Shown here piece by piece: positions 5,102 to 32,507 of a stretch of 40,510 nt of DNA (position 1 is the first letter of the stretch; every line of letters begins with the position of its first letter). A model generated the notes under the pieces. It ran no database searches. It was not told the origin of the DNA and was given only the letters and a program-made list of their open reading frames with translations. The DNA is from a virus. The translations under genes were made by a program, and so were the position numbers. The stretch covers positions 1 through 40,510 of the IMG/VR virus record IMGVR_UViG_3300011997_000005; one strand, written 5' to 3'.

Positions 5102-5129
5102 GAACACATATAACTAAGTGAGGGCTTCA

Positions 5130-5459
5130 ATGCCAACCAAGAATCTCGTTCTCCACGAAGGCCAGTTGGCCGAGAAGACCGTAGTAGAATCACACCAACC
5201 TATCGAGCTGGGTCAGTTGCAGGCCGAGGTGGATAGCCACCAAGCCAACGTTGACGCTCTCGCCGCCGAGGTTGAGGCCACTAATGCTCGTCATGCCGAG
5301 GCTACTGCAGCCCTCGAAGACTCAAAAAGTAACCTTAGCCTCGGTTCGAGCCTGGTGGAAGTCCCCGCCGAATCTGGGAGTGAGGACGAGGCAGAAGTTG
5401 GAACAAGCGAGCCGTCAGAGGATTCTGCACCGGTCGACGTCCCTGTCAACGTCTTGTAA
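5130..5459 (+). CDS. Acidic coiled-coil small protein
   Basis: 109 residues from the ATG at 5130, chosen because GAGGG lies 5 nt upstream; an upstream GTG at 5118 is less well placed. A helical Ala/Glu/His-rich segment (about 25-70; EVDSHQANVDALAAEVEA) predicts a coiled coil, and the tail is strongly acidic. It is a single gene with its own promoter and terminator. After its stop, a coding-looking frame continues one base out of register to 5547 (see findings). Function unknown. Confidence 0.55.
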   Translation: MPTKNLVLHEGQLAEKTVVESHQPIELGQLQAEVDSHQANVDALAAEVEATNARHAEATAALEDSKSNLSLGSSLVEVPAESGSEDEAEVGTSEPSEDSAPVDVPVNVL

Positions 5460-5547
5460 GAACCCCGTTGACCTGTCGCAGTATTTTGTAGACTACGACA
5501 ACCCTGTGGCTGAGAAGTCACCCTACCAAGAATGGAGCCTGCGATAA
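5460..5547 (+). other. Out-of-frame coding-like extension of the 5130 gene
   Basis: Directly after the TAA at 5457-5459, the +1 frame reads KNPVDLSQYFVDYDNP and on to SPYQEWSLR before a TAA at 5545-5547. It has no start codon of its own except a GTG near its end. Its balanced, aromatic-rich composition looks like a real protein C-terminus lost by a frameshift or reached by frameshifting. Confidence 0.35.
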
Positions 5548-5560
5548 GCGGGCTTTTTCT
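5537..5560 (+). terminator. Intrinsic terminator
   Basis: GCCTGC pairs with GCGGGC around the loop GATAA (one G-U pair), then TTTTTCTTT. It ends the 5130 transcript and overlaps the stop of the out-of-frame extension. Confidence 0.85.
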
Positions 5561-5563
5561 TTA

Positions 5564-5592
5564 TTGTACCGCTAGGCTTAATCTGATACACT
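5564..5592 (+). promoter_or_regulatory. Promoter of small RNA copy 1
   Basis: TTGTAC (5564-5569), 17-nt spacer, TACACT (5587-5592) with TGA just before it, giving an extended -10. The predicted start is near 5599. The stretch around the -10 (GATACACTGTATCTAAG) resembles that of copy 2 (GATTACACTGATATTAG). GCTAGGCTT in the spacer (5571-5579) is the inverse of AAGCCTAGC inside the RNA (5627-5635). Confidence 0.6.
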
Positions 5593-5598
5593 GTATCT

Positions 5599-5728
5599 AA
5601 GCTTTGAGTATTGTCGTAATATCTCGAAGCCTAGCTATGAAAGTATTGTACTTTTGAGCGAGTGTGTGTTAAGCTTTGTTTAACGACAATACTCAACTAA
5701 CACCTCGCAAGGGGTGTTTTCTCTTTTA
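5599..5728 (+). ncRNA. Candidate structured small RNA, copy 1 (about 130 nt)
   Basis: A non-coding unit with its own promoter and terminator. Near the 5' end, 5604-5617 (TTGAGTATTGTCGT) is perfectly complementary to 5683-5696, closing a 14-bp stem over a 65-nt interior. Inside is a hairpin at 5638-5656 (AAAGTA/TACTTT core, loop TTG) enclosed by CTCG/CGAG. GTGTTAAG lies near the 3' side of the interior. The terminator stem follows three nucleotides later. Copy 2 at 23680-23809 shares the layout with different stem bases. Function unknown; a DNA-level operator is the alternative. Confidence 0.55.
5699..5728 (+). terminator. Terminator of small RNA copy 1
   Basis: AACACC and GGTGTT form a perfect 6-bp stem with loop TCGCAAGG, followed by TTCTCTTTT. 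Confidence 0.75.
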
Positions 5729-6019
5729 TAGCGAATGTACTGAGCGTACTGTAGCTCTCCACCGCTTCTTATGAAGTACCGTGCAACTCTGAGGGTGGCT
5801 AACAATACAGTGTCCATACCGACACCTCGTCAGTTATACCTAAATGTTATTCTGAGATGGGATAGAACCTATCGGGTATACCAGCACCTAGACTTATCTC
5901 TACTAAGTACCAACCGTAGAGAGGGACAGGAAGCCAACACTGAAAGGGAGAGGGAGGACTAGGGAGAGCTAAGTATAATAAGTCCTCCGTTCCTACAGCT
6001 AGGGCGGGGAGGGAGATTT
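5729..6019 (+). promoter_or_regulatory. Intergenic region with TATAAT inside an inverted repeat
   Basis: No convincing gene; a 63-codon ORF at 5771 lacks a ribosome site and looks like chance. Near its right end TATAAT (5974-5979) sits between GGAGGACT (5953-5960) and AGTCCTCC (5981-5988), an 8-bp inverted repeat that could be an operator or an RNA hairpin at the start of the 6020 message. GGGGAGGGAG at 6006-6015 is the ribosome site of the next gene. Confidence 0.45.
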
Positions 6020-22846: not shown

Positions 22847-23158
22847 CTAGATCTTCACCTTGCCTAGTTGATAGTGATTGATAACGGGGACGATGCGCTT
22901 GTTATATGTACGCTTAGGCTTGTCTAGGGGCGCTGTAACGGCTTCTATGACTGTAGAGCGAGCAGTGCTGGCTAAGACAGTCTTAACGCCGTAGATGGCT
23001 CCTGTGGAGACGAGAGCGATAGGTAATAGGAGCTGCCACAGAACTATGAGCGTCAGTATTAAAACTGAGCCGCCTATGATCATTCCCATTGTGTTGTCAG
23101 TGGACTCTATATGCTGGTACTTATTCCGCGTATAGCTTTGGACTACTGTTTGTTCCAT
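22847..23158 (-). CDS. Membrane protein
   Basis: 103 residues from the ATG at 23158; a GTG at 23179 is also possible. A frame extending to 23221 runs through the promoter -10 and is not credible. MIIGGSVLILTLIVLWQLL and PIALVSTGAIYGVKTVL form one or two membrane spans (about 25-65), followed by a basic tail (KPKRTYNKRIVPV). First gene of the leftward operon. Function unknown. Confidence 0.55.
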   Translation of the reverse strand: MEQTVVQSYTRNKYQHIESTDNTMGMIIGGSVLILTLIVLWQLLLPIALVSTGAIYGVKTVLASTARSTVIEAVTAPLDKPKRTYNKRIVPVINHYQLGKVKI

Positions 23159-23199
23159 GTGGTTTTGTGTTTGATGCACCCTTTCGTGGTTACAAATGA

Positions 23200-23228
23200 A
23201 GCATACTCCTACTAAGTCCAATTGTCAA
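23200..23228 (-). promoter_or_regulatory. Leftward operon promoter TTGACA-17-TATGCT
   Basis: On the minus strand TTGACA (23228-23223), 17-nt spacer, TATGCT (23205-23200). Predicted start near 23193. It lies between the 50-aa zinc protein and the membrane protein and can drive the recombination genes down to 19396. Confidence 0.75.
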
Positions 23229-23241
23229 CCGTACTTTAGGA

Positions 23242-23394
23242 CTAAAGTTGTCCACCGGCGTGGGGACGAGGGGGGGATATCTTGTGGTTATGACGCTGGG
23301 GTATAGCCTCTCGCTGTTTGATATAGCACTTAAAGCACTGCATCTCGGCATTGAGGAGCGTTCGTATCTCTTTATTGCAATATTTACATAACAT
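23242..23394 (-). CDS. Zinc-ribbon mini-protein (50 aa)
   Basis: ATG at 23394, TAG at 23244-23242. MLCKYCNKEIRTLL...MQCFKCYIKQRE has two C-x-x-C pairs 14 residues apart, a clear small zinc ribbon, then a Pro/His-rich tail. No strong ribosome site. It lies just upstream of the leftward operon promoter. Function unknown. Confidence 0.5.
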   Translation of the reverse strand: MLCKYCNKEIRTLLNAEMQCFKCYIKQREAIPQRHNHKISPPRPHAGGQL

Positions 23395-23679
23395 GGTGTG
23401 GTTCTTTCAGTTAAGCAAAAGGGTCTACTTTGATTTATTCCTATAACTGCCTCCCTATAAGTAGTGGTCAGTGTTAGTCCCCCCTGCTAAACGAGCAGGT
23501 CGTGGGTAGGAATGTAAATCAATCTAGTAAGTATTCAATCTATGTATATCAGCGTAAGCCCACAGGGAGGCTTCTATACCCAAGGAAAAATGTCAGAGCC
23601 TGTAGTAACAGGTGCTTACCATCGCAAAAGCCTCGGTAGATTGTATTGTCCAAAAGAGTAGGTGGATCGCCGCAGGGGA

Positions 23680-23713
23680 TAAAAAAAGCCCCCGATTAAA
23701 TGGAGGCTTTTCT
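23680..23713 (-). terminator. Terminator of small RNA copy 2
   Basis: Minus strand: AAAAGCC-TCC and GGG-GGCTTTT pair with one mismatch around ATTTAATC, followed by a run of seven T. Rightward it would also work weakly (TTTTCT). Confidence 0.8.
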
Positions 23714-23809
23714 AACAAGATGTCATTAAGTTTAACTTAACACAGCTATTGGATATTAGCAACCATAAAATATTCTTTTAGCGTCACTAGACAATGACAT
23801 CTTGTGACT
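23680..23809 (-). ncRNA. Candidate structured small RNA, copy 2 (about 130 nt)
   Basis: Leftward unit with its own promoter and strong terminator. Near its 5' end ACAAGATGTCATT (23805-23793) pairs perfectly with AATGACATCTTGT (23727-23715), a 13-bp closing stem over a 65-nt interior, the same length as in copy 1. The interior has an A/T hairpin (TAAAA/TTTTA) in the middle and GTGTTAAG near the 3' end, as in copy 1. The terminator follows at once. The closing stems of the two copies differ in sequence but keep pairing, which argues for selected RNA structure. Confidence 0.55.
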
Positions 23810-23815
23810 AATATC

Positions 23816-23845
23816 AGTGTAATCCACAAAGCTAACCCGTGTAAA
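23816..23845 (-). promoter_or_regulatory. Promoter of small RNA copy 2
   Basis: Minus strand TTTACA (23845-23840), 18-nt spacer, TACACT (23821-23816), the same -10 as copy 1. The distance from -10 to the left arm of the closing stem is 10 nt (11 nt in copy 1). Confidence 0.55.
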
Positions 23846-24022
23846 CCCCTAAAGCTTTAGTGAGTTTGCCAGTTACATGACTAGATGTTGTGGTAAAATG
23901 TAGCCAGCGTCGTGGATCGCCGCTATCACCTCACAACAAGGGTAAGGATACAGGCATAGCTTTAGAGAGTTATCTATGAGGCTGTTGCAAAGTACAGCGC
24001 CCCCTTACACGTTGCAATTTAG

Positions 24023-24057
24023 AAACCCCGCCTCCTATTTTGAGAGACGGGGTTTTC
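24023..24057. terminator. Bidirectional terminator-like hairpin
   Basis: AAACCCCG and CGGGGTTT form an 8-bp stem over a 17-nt loop; TTTTC follows rightward. Upstream, a TAAAAT near 23896 could start a rightward RNA of about 150 nt that includes the second GTGGATCGCCGC repeat. Confidence 0.5.
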
Positions 24058-24097
24058 TGATAGAACCTTACCTGCACTAGAACTCCGATCTAATCAT

Positions 24098-24132
24098 AAC
24101 AAAAAGCTCCGCCGTGAGGGTGGCTGGAGCTT
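24098..24132 (-). terminator. Leftward terminator
   Basis: Minus strand AAGCTCC...GGAGCTT (7 bp, plus an inner GCC/GGC) followed by TTTTTGTT. Confidence 0.65.
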
Positions 24133-24143
24133 AATGTGGAGTT

Positions 24144-24168
24144 CGTGCGGTAAGGCACGTTTTGTTTG
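24144..24168 (+). terminator. Rightward terminator
   Basis: CGTGC and GCACG pair around GGTAAG, followed by TTTTGTTT. Confidence 0.6.
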
Positions 24169-24199
24169 GGGATTTTTGTTTTCGGGGTTAGTCCCCTTT

Positions 24200-24237
24200 A
24201 GACCAGTAGCGGTCTGTATTAAATATGCACTTAATAC
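24200..24237. other. Two adjoining perfect hairpins
   Basis: AGACC/GGTCT with loop AGTAGC (24200-24215), immediately followed by GTATTAA/TTAATAC with an 8-nt loop (24216-24237). They have no T run and lie between terminators, suggesting part of a structured RNA. Confidence 0.4.
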
Positions 24238-24349
24238 TTGAGCTTGCCTAGTGCTTTATTCCTAAACGTACAAAACCCCGCCGAGGTGTGACGAGGCTGT
24301 GTACATAAGTAAGATTACAAACGCTAAGTTTGCTCCCTCACTTTAGCAT

Positions 24350-24380
24350 AAAATTAGCGCCCCTGCTTGGGAGGCGCTAA
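24350..24380 (-). terminator. Leftward terminator
   Basis: TTAGCGCC/GGCGCTAA is a perfect 8-bp stem with an 11-nt loop; on the minus strand it is followed by TTTTAT. Confidence 0.6.
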
Positions 24381-24429
24381 AGCTACTGGTTGGCTACGCT
24401 TATCAAAGCGGAACTGGCCCAATGGTATC

Positions 24430-24455
24430 AAAAACAAAACGCCCAGTAAAGGGCG
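24430..24455 (-). terminator. Leftward terminator after broken gene
   Basis: Minus strand CGCCC-TTTACT-GGGCG, then TTTTGTTTTT. It starts 13 nt after the last TAG of the broken gene at 24469. Confidence 0.7.
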
Positions 24456-24468
24456 AAATGTCTAAAGG

Positions 24469-24675
24469 CTATTTTGCTACATTGTCGGTCGGGACTTTAA
24501 CCACCTTACCCCGCCCGTGGTGGAACTATAGAGAGCCTAGCCTAGTGTTGCCACTAACTTGGGTCATATAGGAAGTGTAGAGAGCTTGTGCGGGGGTAGC
24601 CGTCCCGTCTTGCTTTGATGTGTTGTAACCTTGCGTGGCCCCGCTAAGAAGACCGATACTCCACTAACTCTACAT
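24469..24675 (-). pseudogene. Broken small gene with in-frame TAG codons
   Basis: One minus-strand frame from an ATG at 24675 to a TAG at 24471-24469 spans 69 codons but has TAG at codons 2 and 4 and again near codon 51. Between the stops it looks coding: SIGLLSGATQGYNTSKQDG, PAQALYTSYMTQVSGNTRL and, after the third TAG, GKVVKVPTDNVAK. The unit has an AGCCTAAGC element upstream (24696-24704) and a terminator just after it. Other genes here end in TAG, so recoding is unlikely; decay of a small structural-type gene is the simpler reading. Confidence 0.4.
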
Positions 24676-24695
24676 AGACAGAATAACATATAAGT

Positions 24696-24704
24696 GCTTA
24701 GGCT
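24696..24704 (-). promoter_or_regulatory. AGCCTAAGC element, minus orientation
   Basis: Minus-strand AGCCTAAGC with TTATTC nine bases later, matching the spacing at 5078 and 17770. Lies upstream of the broken gene at 24469-24675. Confidence 0.45.
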
Positions 24705-24752
24705 TAGTTATGGACATCCTTGACGAACAACTAGCCGATTGGATAGTGGCGA

Positions 24753-29384: not shown

Positions 29385-29554
29385 TGAACGCCGGACTATT
29401 AAGAGCAGGGTTTGATAATAGCGGGAGCGGGAGCAGGAGCGGGAGCTGGAGCAGGAGCTGGAGCAGGAGCAGGAGCTGGAGCAGGAGCAGGAGCAGGAGC
29501 GGGAGCGGGAGCGGGAGCAGGAGCAGGAGCTGGAGCGGGAGCAGGAGCTTATGA
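29384..29554 (+). CDS. Ser-[Gly/Arg/Trp] dipeptide-repeat peptide (56 aa)
   Basis: ATG overlaps the stop of the gene before it (TAATG) and its TGA overlaps the next ATG (ATGA), so it is coupled on both sides. A 12-residue lead (MNAGLLRAGFDN) is followed by 21 Ser-X dipeptides in which X is Gly, Arg or Trp, for example SGSGSRSGSWSRSWSRSRS, then SL. Every unit is AGC plus GGG, AGG or TGG. It resembles an RS-rich low-complexity tract and may bind RNA or be disordered. The repeat may instead be only a DNA or RNA feature. Confidence 0.5.
   Translation: MNAGLLRAGFDNSGSGSRSGSWSRSWSRSRSWSRSRSRSGSGSGSRSRSWSGSRSL
29420..29548 (+). repeat. AGC(G/A/T)GG hexamer array, about 21 units
   Basis: 21 tandem six-base units plus a half unit, varying only at the fourth base, and never C. 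It ends three bases before the ATG at 29551. Each unit contains GGAGC, a Shine-Dalgarno-like core. The hexamer period keeps frame if copy number changes. Confidence 0.9.
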
Positions 29555-30612
29555 ACCCCACTAATCCAGAACGAGTGTGTCCTGAGTGCGCCCAGATAGT
29601 AAAATATGGTGGTTGGCAGAAGCGGTGGCCAGACAGGCACACTACCATCACTCCTGGCAACCCGGATTGCCCCACCTGCCACGGAAAGGGTGTTATCCCA
29701 GAGCCAACAACCAGACAGGCTAACGGTGAACCTATCCCAAGCGGTTCGGCAGAAACCAATGCAGCAGATGCCATTGTGTATTCAGCCCCAGATGTAAACA
29801 AAACCCCCGATATTATTGACATTACTAAGTCAGATGTAAACAAACCCGCAGAAACCTCCGTCAGCAATTGTACTTGTGGCCACGGTTTTAAACGGCACTC
29901 AATTGCCCCTGACCATTTCTGCCTCAAATTGTACTGTGCCTGCCCGGCGTGGGAGCTGGAGGCCGCTGACTATGTCGCCTCAATGGAAACTATGTCGCAT
30001 TCTATGTCAACTCCCGCCGAGAGAATCGTCACCGATATTGAGCCGGGCGACCACATCGGCTATTGCCGGAATTGTCAGAGTATGACCAAGACTATCAAGG
30101 ATAAGTGTGGCAAATGTGGAGCGGCCAAAACCTATACAAAACCTGAAATATCTATACATGAAACACCTGAATCTATACAACCACCAGAGGCCAGCGAGGG
30201 GAAGCAGATACATACTGTCGATGAGGCCATGGCGGCACTACGAGCGGGCAAAACCCTTTACTGGGAAGCCACCCCCTCAGTACTACCGACCGACTTCGAA
30301 AGTCCGGTTTCTAAAACTTCGAAGATTGCCCAACCCCAGCCCCAGGAGAGCGAGCGCATGACCGCCGACAACCTGCTTGTATGGCTAAGTGCTCACGGCC
30401 TCAAGGGAGTAGTGAGCCATACAGTAGCCGATGAGATACAGCGCTGGCACGTTGATTGCATGAAGTCCGACCTAGCCGCTGAATATACCAGAGGGGCGAG
30501 GGAAGAGCTGGAAGCGCTATTAACTATTCCCGCAGGAACTAATAATAGCGAGCGGTGGTTGTGGGGAGAGGGTGAAACCCGCCTACACCAACTAACTAAG
30601 GAGCCGAAATGA
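29551..30612 (+). CDS. Multi-zinc-finger protein
   Basis: 353 residues. Zinc-type clusters: CPEC (10-13), CPTCHGKG (about 41-48, DnaJ-like), a Cys/His-rich CTCGHGFKRHS with later CACPAW (about 108-135), and YCRNCQS...KCGKCGAAK (about 170-190). The regions between are Pro/Thr-rich and probably disordered, and the C-terminus is helical. Immediately downstream of the hexamer array, with the ATG overlapping the repeat peptide's stop. Possibly nucleic-acid binding; no specific family. Confidence 0.6.
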   Translation: MNPTNPERVCPECAQIVKYGGWQKRWPDRHTTITPGNPDCPTCHGKGVIPEPTTRQANGEPIPSGSAETNAADAIVYSAPDVNKTPDIIDITKSDVNKPAETSVSNCTCGHGFKRHSIAPDHFCLKLYCACPAWELEAADYVASMETMSHSMSTPAERIVTDIEPGDHIGYCRNCQSMTKTIKDKCGKCGAAKTYTKPEISIHETPESIQPPEASEGKQIHTVDEAMAALRAGKTLYWEATPSVLPTDFESPVSKTSKIAQPQPQESERMTADNLLVWLSAHGLKGVVSHTVADEIQRWHVDCMKSDLAAEYTRGAREELEALLTIPAGTNNSERWLWGEGETRLHQLTKEPK

Positions 30613-31970: not shown

Positions 31971-32119
31971 TTGCTACAGGCGGTGGCCACGGTATTGTTA
32001 TTTATACTCGCTACTGGCGAGTTTTGAAGCGAAAGCTTCGAGATAGGCCCCCCGTAAGGGATGCCACCACCTGTTATTCGCATTATACCATCATAAGGAG
32101 TACAAATGAACCTCGATAA
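31967..32119 (+). CDS. Doubtful basic peptide (50 aa)
   Basis: ATGA overlap with the previous gene. Basic sequence (YTRYWRVLKRKLRDRPPVR). The DNA also holds a GAAGC-GAAA-GCTTC hairpin (32027-32040), so this stretch may instead be a leader or processing site before the 32106 gene. Confidence 0.25.
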   Translation: MIATGGGHGIVIYTRYWRVLKRKLRDRPPVRDATTCYSHYTIIRSTNEPR

Positions 32120-32507
32120 GATACTAGAAGACTTACTCGGTTACTGGCCTGAAATGGATAAAACCCAAAATGATGACACCGTTAAACTGGCCCAAGCCAA
32201 AGCCGCCATCATCCAGTGGGCGGCATTAGAATATAAGAATAACAATCAAGGAGATACTATTATGGAAAATCAAGAATTAACTTTCGGTGGCAAAGCAGTA
32301 GGTTTGAGCTTTAACCCGTCAGGCAATGCCGAGGTCAATGCGCTCAAGGTATCGGCCGCTAATTTTATTGATGAGATTTGCGGGCCGAGTGGCGAGAAGT
32401 TGGATTTTAAGGCCGACGCCGAGGCAGCAGCTATGCGTAAACTAGCTCAACGTGCTGCCCAAGAAGCTCAGATGTGGGCGGTAAAGGCTGCCACATGGCA
32501 AAGCTAG
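32106..32507 (+). CDS. Two-start gene; C-terminal half resembles Acb2/Tad1-type small phage proteins
   Basis: 133 residues from ATG 32106 (AAGGAG site), with an in-phase internal ATG at 32262 that has its own AAGGAG eight bases upstream and would give 81 residues. The first part (52 residues) is a helical unit. The second has FGGKAVGLSFNPSGNAEV, a helix, and AQMWAVKAATW, which I recall from small phage proteins related to the Acb2/Tad1 hairpin group that trap cyclic nucleotides to block CBASS or Thoeris. The family match is tentative. Confidence 0.5.
   Translation: MNLDKILEDLLGYWPEMDKTQNDDTVKLAQAKAAIIQWAALEYKNNNQGDTIMENQELTFGGKAVGLSFNPSGNAEVNALKVSAANFIDEICGPSGEKLDFKADAEAAAMRKLAQRAAQEAQMWAVKAATWQS

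Follow-up and report, generated by a model that had tools for sequence, protein, structure and literature searches.

The window analysed here, the whole 40,510-base stretch of an IMG/VR virus record, is essentially a nearly complete phage genome, circular or circularly permuted, since a second contig (L004), 100% identical to it over 11.7 kb, bridges its end to its start with about nine extra bases (L004 5721-5729). Its protein content (a capsid protein of the phrog_422 type, terminase, amidase endolysin, RusA and single-strand annealing proteins) marks the source as a tailed phage; by DNA, positions 1-25000 of the window matched no named phage. A single genome from a Patescibacteria phylum sample contains a 57% identical terminase fragment, which serves only as a hint to the host. 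Elsewhere on the plus strand, 32106-32507 encodes a protein of 133 aa that weakly resembles the Acb2/Tad1 hairpin domain (PF24729) in its C-terminal part (E 4e-5, falling a little short of the cut-off) and might be an anti-CBASS or anti-Thoeris sponge, and a GGAGCNGGAGCN-type hexamer repeat lies at 29420-29550 (+), just upstream of gene 29551-30612.

We found two units of the same layout in this genome, copy 1 on the plus and copy 2 on the minus strand (Table 1). In both, a promoter-like site with TACACT as its -10 hexamer is followed, after 11 nt in copy 1 and 10 nt in copy 2, by a perfect closing stem, P1 (14 bp and 13 bp, respectively), around a loop of exactly 65 nt, with an intrinsic terminator 1-2 nt past P1; GTGTTAAG begins 17 nt (copy 1) or 16 nt (copy 2) ahead of the 3′ arm. 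The first-pass annotation, made from the letters alone, had picked out the stem, loop and terminator of copy 1, the second unit on the other strand, the two spacings and the placement of GTGTTAAG, and in all of these it proved correct. The extended -10 that it ascribed to the promoters is present in copy 1 (TGn) and absent from copy 2, which has a better -35 instead; the inner hairpin that it placed in the interior is present in both RNAs, at positions that differ between them.

Table 1. Features of the two units; RNA numbering (nt) starts at 5599 in copy 1 and at 23810 in copy 2
Feature	Position	Strand	Remarks
Copy 1, predicted non-coding RNA	5599-5722	+	presumed start about 7 nt past the -10; short ORFs only, at most 17 codons
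Copy 2, predicted non-coding RNA	23810-23682	-	matched by the model of copy 1 alone (R1)
Copy 1, upstream intrinsic terminator	5534-5556	+	9-pair stem, 5-nt loop, T-rich tail; between gene 5118-5459 and copy 1
Copy 1, promoter-like site	5564-5592	+	weak -35 TTGTAC (5564-5569), 17-nt spacer, extended -10 TGATACACT, hexamer 5587-5592
Copy 2, promoter-like site	23845-23816	-	TTTACA, 18-nt spacer, TACACT; 9/12 matches
Copy 1, P1 5′ arm (state A)	5604-5617	+	pairs with 5683-5696
Copy 1, P1 3′ arm (state A)	5683-5696	+	pairs with 5604-5617
Copy 2, P1 5′ arm	23805-23793	-	pairs with 23727-23715
Copy 2, P1 3′ arm	23727-23715	-	pairs with 23805-23793
Copy 1, inner hairpin	5634-5658	+	GCT/AGC, AAAGTA/TACTTT; from the fold
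Copy 2, inner hairpin (state A)	23789-23757	-	TAGTGAC/GTTGCTA, TAAAA/TTTTA; from the fold
Copy 1, H1, alternative local hairpin (state B)	5601-5630 (nt 3-32)	+	contains P1 5′ arm; -10.4 kcal/mol, P=0.004
Copy 2, H1, alternative local hairpin	23808-23783 (nt 3-28)	-	P=0.03
Copy 1, H3, alternative hairpin (state B)	5660-5694 (nt 62-96)	+	contains P1 3′ arm; bulged G at nt 87; P=0.005
Copy 2, H3, alternative hairpin	23744-23721 (nt 67-90)	-	P 0.08 alone, not significantly stable
Copy 1, shared segment	5665-5688 (nt 67-90)	+	TGTGTTAAGCTTTGTTTAACGACA, exact register with copy 2
Copy 2, shared segment (= H3)	23744-23721 (nt 67-90)	-	TGTGTTAAGTTAAACTTAATGACA
Copy 1, intrinsic terminator	5699-5718	+	8-pair stem, T tail
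Copy 2, intrinsic terminator	23713-23682	-	from the fold

The window holds two perfect inverted repeats with arms of 13 bp or more and a loop of 45-90 nt; 100 dinucleotide shuffles averaged 0.02 such repeats and never had more than 1, so that the stems are far beyond chance. When stems of at least 10 bp with a loop of 45-90 nt and a following terminator were sought across 0.85 Mb, made up of the window and DNA of related phages, the only finds were both copies, the identical counterpart in L004 and, in the distant relative L069, a 10-bp stem rich in AT. Fold z-scores are -5.3 for copy 1 and -6.7 for copy 2. Neither RNA holds a credible ORF: the longest has 17 codons, a TTG start and no Shine-Dalgarno sequence. 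No tRNA or tmRNA was found, and Rfam 15 gave no match either at the gathering threshold or at E up to 10, the best weak candidates being terminator-driven or chance. Both units are real, structured and unclassified. Each also contains an ATG mini-ORF of exactly six codons (MKVLYF from nt 39 in copy 1, 5637-5657 (+); MVANIQ from nt 45 in copy 2, 23766-23746 (-)), without a Shine-Dalgarno sequence and probably there by chance, and an exact 12-nt direct repeat, GTGGATCGCCGC, flanks the copy 2 RNA gene (23662-23673 and 23912-23923).

The closing stem had been taken as the fold of these RNAs. P1 does form in the predicted state A, but it is not the unique solution, for the stem arms have alternative local partners that had been missed: in state B the 5′ arm is taken up by a local hairpin H1 and the 3′ arm by a hairpin H3, and both RNAs are predicted to be bistable, P1 competing with H1 plus H3. 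The computed energies of states A and B are -41.8 and -41.9 kcal/mol in copy 1, where the two are isoenergetic, and -44.2 and -34.6 kcal/mol in copy 2, where the long-range fold is ahead by 9.6; in transcripts without the terminator P1 occupancy comes to 46% in copy 1 and >99% in copy 2. Interior shuffles fold less well than the all-local structure of either copy (P 0.001 for copy 1, P 0.019 for copy 2), shuffles of the first 40 nt likewise fold less well than the originals (P=0.012 and P=0.015), and the terminator stems overlap neither switching helix in either copy. The shared nt 67-90 coincide with H3 and its bulged G87. Within it GUGUUAAG is hidden, to be mostly released, by prediction, once P1 forms; in copy 2 with P1 formed, nt 68-73 of GUGUUAAG are unpaired. 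Growing-chain folds, a minimum-energy argument and not a kinetic simulation, put H1 earliest in both copies; copy 2 goes over to P1 on completion of the 3′ arm, and the minimum-energy fold of copy 1, balanced between both states, stays local to the end. Mutual pairing of copy 1 with copy 2 was considered and is not favoured, a co-fold of -59.4 kcal/mol against about -58.8 kcal/mol for the separate folds being almost no gain. The predicted bistability makes these units more interesting than a plain hairpin would be.

Our reading, held tentatively and with a probability of roughly 0.45, is that these are two stand-alone, non-coding, bistable phage RNAs that act in trans through GUGUUAAG, masked during transcription and exposed afterwards. 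The course of events that we infer would begin with each RNA starting at its own promoter, to be ended by its own terminator about 105-130 nt later. During transcription H1 would form first at the 5′ end and the GUGUUAAG strand would be tucked into H3 (state B); once finished, the 3′ arm could pair with the 5′ arm as P1 (state A), opening H3 and freeing most of GUGUUAAG, which could then serve as the seed for action in trans on an RNA or protein target. The closing stem would protect both ends, its sequence being free to change while pairing holds. As far as sequence goes, both copies have their own promoter-like site and their own intrinsic terminator around non-coding DNA, the promoter-like site of copy 1 having been read from the sequence and, with its weak -35, lying under the cut-off of the promoter scan. 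Three features speak for stand-alone units: copy 1 is bracketed by terminators, gene 22847-23221, past copy 2, has a consensus promoter of its own (23228-23200), and the terminator stems lie outside the switching helices. Because the growing-chain fold of copy 1 stays local, its switch would need help, or only half of the molecules would switch. No 8-nt complement to GUGUUAAG was seen in phage mRNA, and the only long complements to copy 1 found in the window were the RNA's own arms.

The main rival, somewhat unlikely in our estimate, is a cis-acting leader of operons (the late genes behind copy 1 and the early ones on the minus strand behind copy 2) that would control polymerase passage of the adjacent terminator, as an attenuator or as a polymerase modifier like HK022 put or a Q-type late leader. 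It would account for the presence of one copy upstream of each of two opposite gene blocks, about 290-300 nt before the next ORF, for the terminator directly after the RNA in both, and for some six minus-strand terminator-like hairpins in the 23.68-24.46 kb region; each early operon of HK022 likewise has a put RNA, the two being similar (PMC9378689). An attenuator would use the 5′ half of the terminator stem in an antiterminator helix, for which copy 1 offers only a 6-bp possibility, GUGUUA with the UAACAC of the terminator stem, and copy 2 none; both folds leave the terminator intact, its stem lying outside the switching helices. Also against a leader are the consensus promoter of gene 22847-23221, a TATAAT at 5974-5979 before gene 6020, and the make-up of put itself, which lacks a closing stem.

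That the two are unrelated promoter-hairpin-terminator units, merely alike and with no common family or function, is a less probable alternative still. In its favour, unanchored local alignment of the copies is not significant (P=0.11), a model of copy 2 alone reaches copy 1 only at E 0.11, and the inner hairpins do not coincide. Against this, words shared at the same stem-anchored register (the loop 9-mer TGTGTTAAG, P=0.004, and the promoter 7-mer TACACTG, P=0.013, the latter bearing out the promoter sequence around TACACT that had been reported as common to both) exceed chance, and bistability is predicted for both. We used covariance models of copy 1 alone (R1) and copy 2 alone (R2) and no joint model, since MAFFT could not set the copies in register across the whole stem. 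When the window was searched with R1, copy 2 was the best other sense-strand match (22.2 bits, E 0.0057); with R2 copy 1 was the best, more weakly (18.8 bits, E 0.11). Apart from self-matches, the single hit that scored better in either search was the query copy's own reverse complement, as is always so with a stem. The stem bases had been called unrelated though still pairing: pairing is indeed kept, but TGTC/GACA is retained in register mid-stem while the pairs around it have changed. These shared words, the model matches and the TGTC/GACA kept amid changed pairs suggest that the copies are probably related. The first-pass annotation went further and took compensatory change as the mark of selection, which is not established: P1 has two double changes among its 7 inner pairs and H3 has one (pair 76-80, which is C-G or U-A depending on the copy, besides two pairs that differ on one side), and with two rows only, shuffles reach this easily. 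Both "family" and compensatory selection are unproven, the covariation being that of two sequences from one phage.

Two further readings are far less likely than a stand-alone RNA or a cis leader, as are, to a lesser degree, the two unrelated units just discussed. A DNA-level element, with the inverted repeats as cruciform, recombination or protein-binding sites, would suit perfect repeats of 13-14 bp, but the arm sequences differ, leaving no common DNA site, and the strict polarity, with the promoter always ahead and the terminator always behind, makes it very improbable. The slimmest chance goes to a 6S-RNA-like decoy that binds sigma-70 holoenzyme and shifts host transcription, for although the closing stem, two unpaired middle strands, small 3′-strand hairpin and apical hairpin would fit, and the change of fold could release polymerase, the sequence is unlike 6S RNA, the RNA is shorter, and no Rfam 6S-type model matches even at E up to 10.

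The search for further members in related phage DNA and Patescibacteria, which had been proposed at first pass, found none. No third member came from 0.8 Mb of related phage DNA, 27 complete related records and 62 sources searched with the single-copy models, which are weak and could miss a distant or diverged family; that such searches came back empty carries little weight. Among 50,697 phages searched by nucleotide, none matched copy 1; with copy 2 the hits were short, at E 0.5, and fell mostly on the terminator, whose sequence recurs at about 90% identity in short stretches of several phages, in one case under annotation as a terminator. When the shared-segment pattern was run against viral contigs and 84,980 genomes, the hits failed structural checks and are all chance. 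An R2 match in another contig (L008 17127-17189, E 2.2) spans a start codon on the other strand and was set aside as chance. The 380 Patescibacteria-phylum genomes yielded one unrelated repeat only, an R1 match to a long imperfect palindrome (L212 1490-1620) at E 0.005 per genome, or about 2 over the 380 genomes; it has only a short GTCG-AATATCTCGA stretch in common with copy 1 and is likely a REP-like element met by coincidence. What stands of the proposed new RNA family is therefore two probably related copies without an Rfam match; a family is not established. Early genes led to no relatives and a structural gene only to the identical L004; in the relatives reached through capsid and terminase (capsid 51-86% identical) the unit is not at the matching place, and it looks accessory, like a moron. 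That both sequences sit in one phage and the RNA is missing from those relatives counts against our stand-alone reading, as it would not be a conserved function of the phage group.

The minus strand from 23222 to 24709, about 1.5 kb, is mostly non-coding. About six terminator-like hairpins follow one another there (near 24455, 24380, 24290, 24131, 24054 and 23713), which suggests a group of additional small RNAs or a leader with many terminators. Two stretches there stand out in fold z-scores, which were computed for selected regions of the window: 24100-24240 (z -6.5), with four to five short hairpins and then a terminator and including GTATTAAGTGCATATTTAATAC, possibly another small RNA, and the strongly structured 24020-24150 (z -6.1), across two terminator hairpins.

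A bolder version of the stand-alone reading, which we regard as improbable, would see in these units a new class of kinetically switching phage RNAs, with four strands X-Y ... Z-X′ whose local pairings X:Y and Z:X′ swap for the long-range X:X′, so that a fixed 8-nt strand is exposed only in the finished transcript; the pair would work for two opposite transcription units of the phage, either by timing or by acting directly on host RNA polymerase. Structured non-coding RNAs in the phages of uncultured bacteria are almost uncharted, and a single genome that holds such a pair, with arms that differ, a common register and two folds in competition, offers a directly testable bistable design in two natural variants. 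If the units are polymerase or antitermination elements, they would add to the very few phage regulators that work without a protein.

Several known systems invite comparison. 6S RNA has a 5′-3′ closing stem around an open middle, as here; our copies are shorter and have no Rfam match. The C4 RNA of phage P1 and the CI RNA of P4 are small structured regulatory antisense RNAs of phages, from which copy 1 differs in having neither a long complementary target in the window nor an Rfam match. In hok-type mRNAs metastable 5′ hairpins give way to long-range 5′-3′ pairing, a sequence much like the local hairpins during transcription and later long-range pairing envisaged here, but the present RNAs have no antisense partner and no toxin-sized ORF, the 17-codon TTG frame being the longest. 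The anti-sRNAs of lambdoid prophages such as AgvB (51-60 nt) have a variable 5′ seed and a conserved 3′ part (PMC4104026); they are likewise small phage RNAs at moron-like intergenic sites, present in more than one related copy, with one conserved segment beside a variable one. They differ in that here the paired arms vary and an inner segment is kept. The put RNAs of HK022 bind the zinc domain of the RNA polymerase beta-prime subunit and give read-through. They are two related structured RNAs of about 70 nt in the two early operons of one phage, putL directly after its promoter, each with two side-by-side stem-loops and without a closing stem (PMC9378689). The two probably related RNAs described here are alike in forming such a structured pair in one phage, but they have a closing stem in state A, three hairpins over about 95 nt in state B of copy 1, predicted bistability and an immediate terminator, where put acts on read-through. 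On this analogy the differing architecture would lower the case for membership of the put family, and not the possibility of a similar action.
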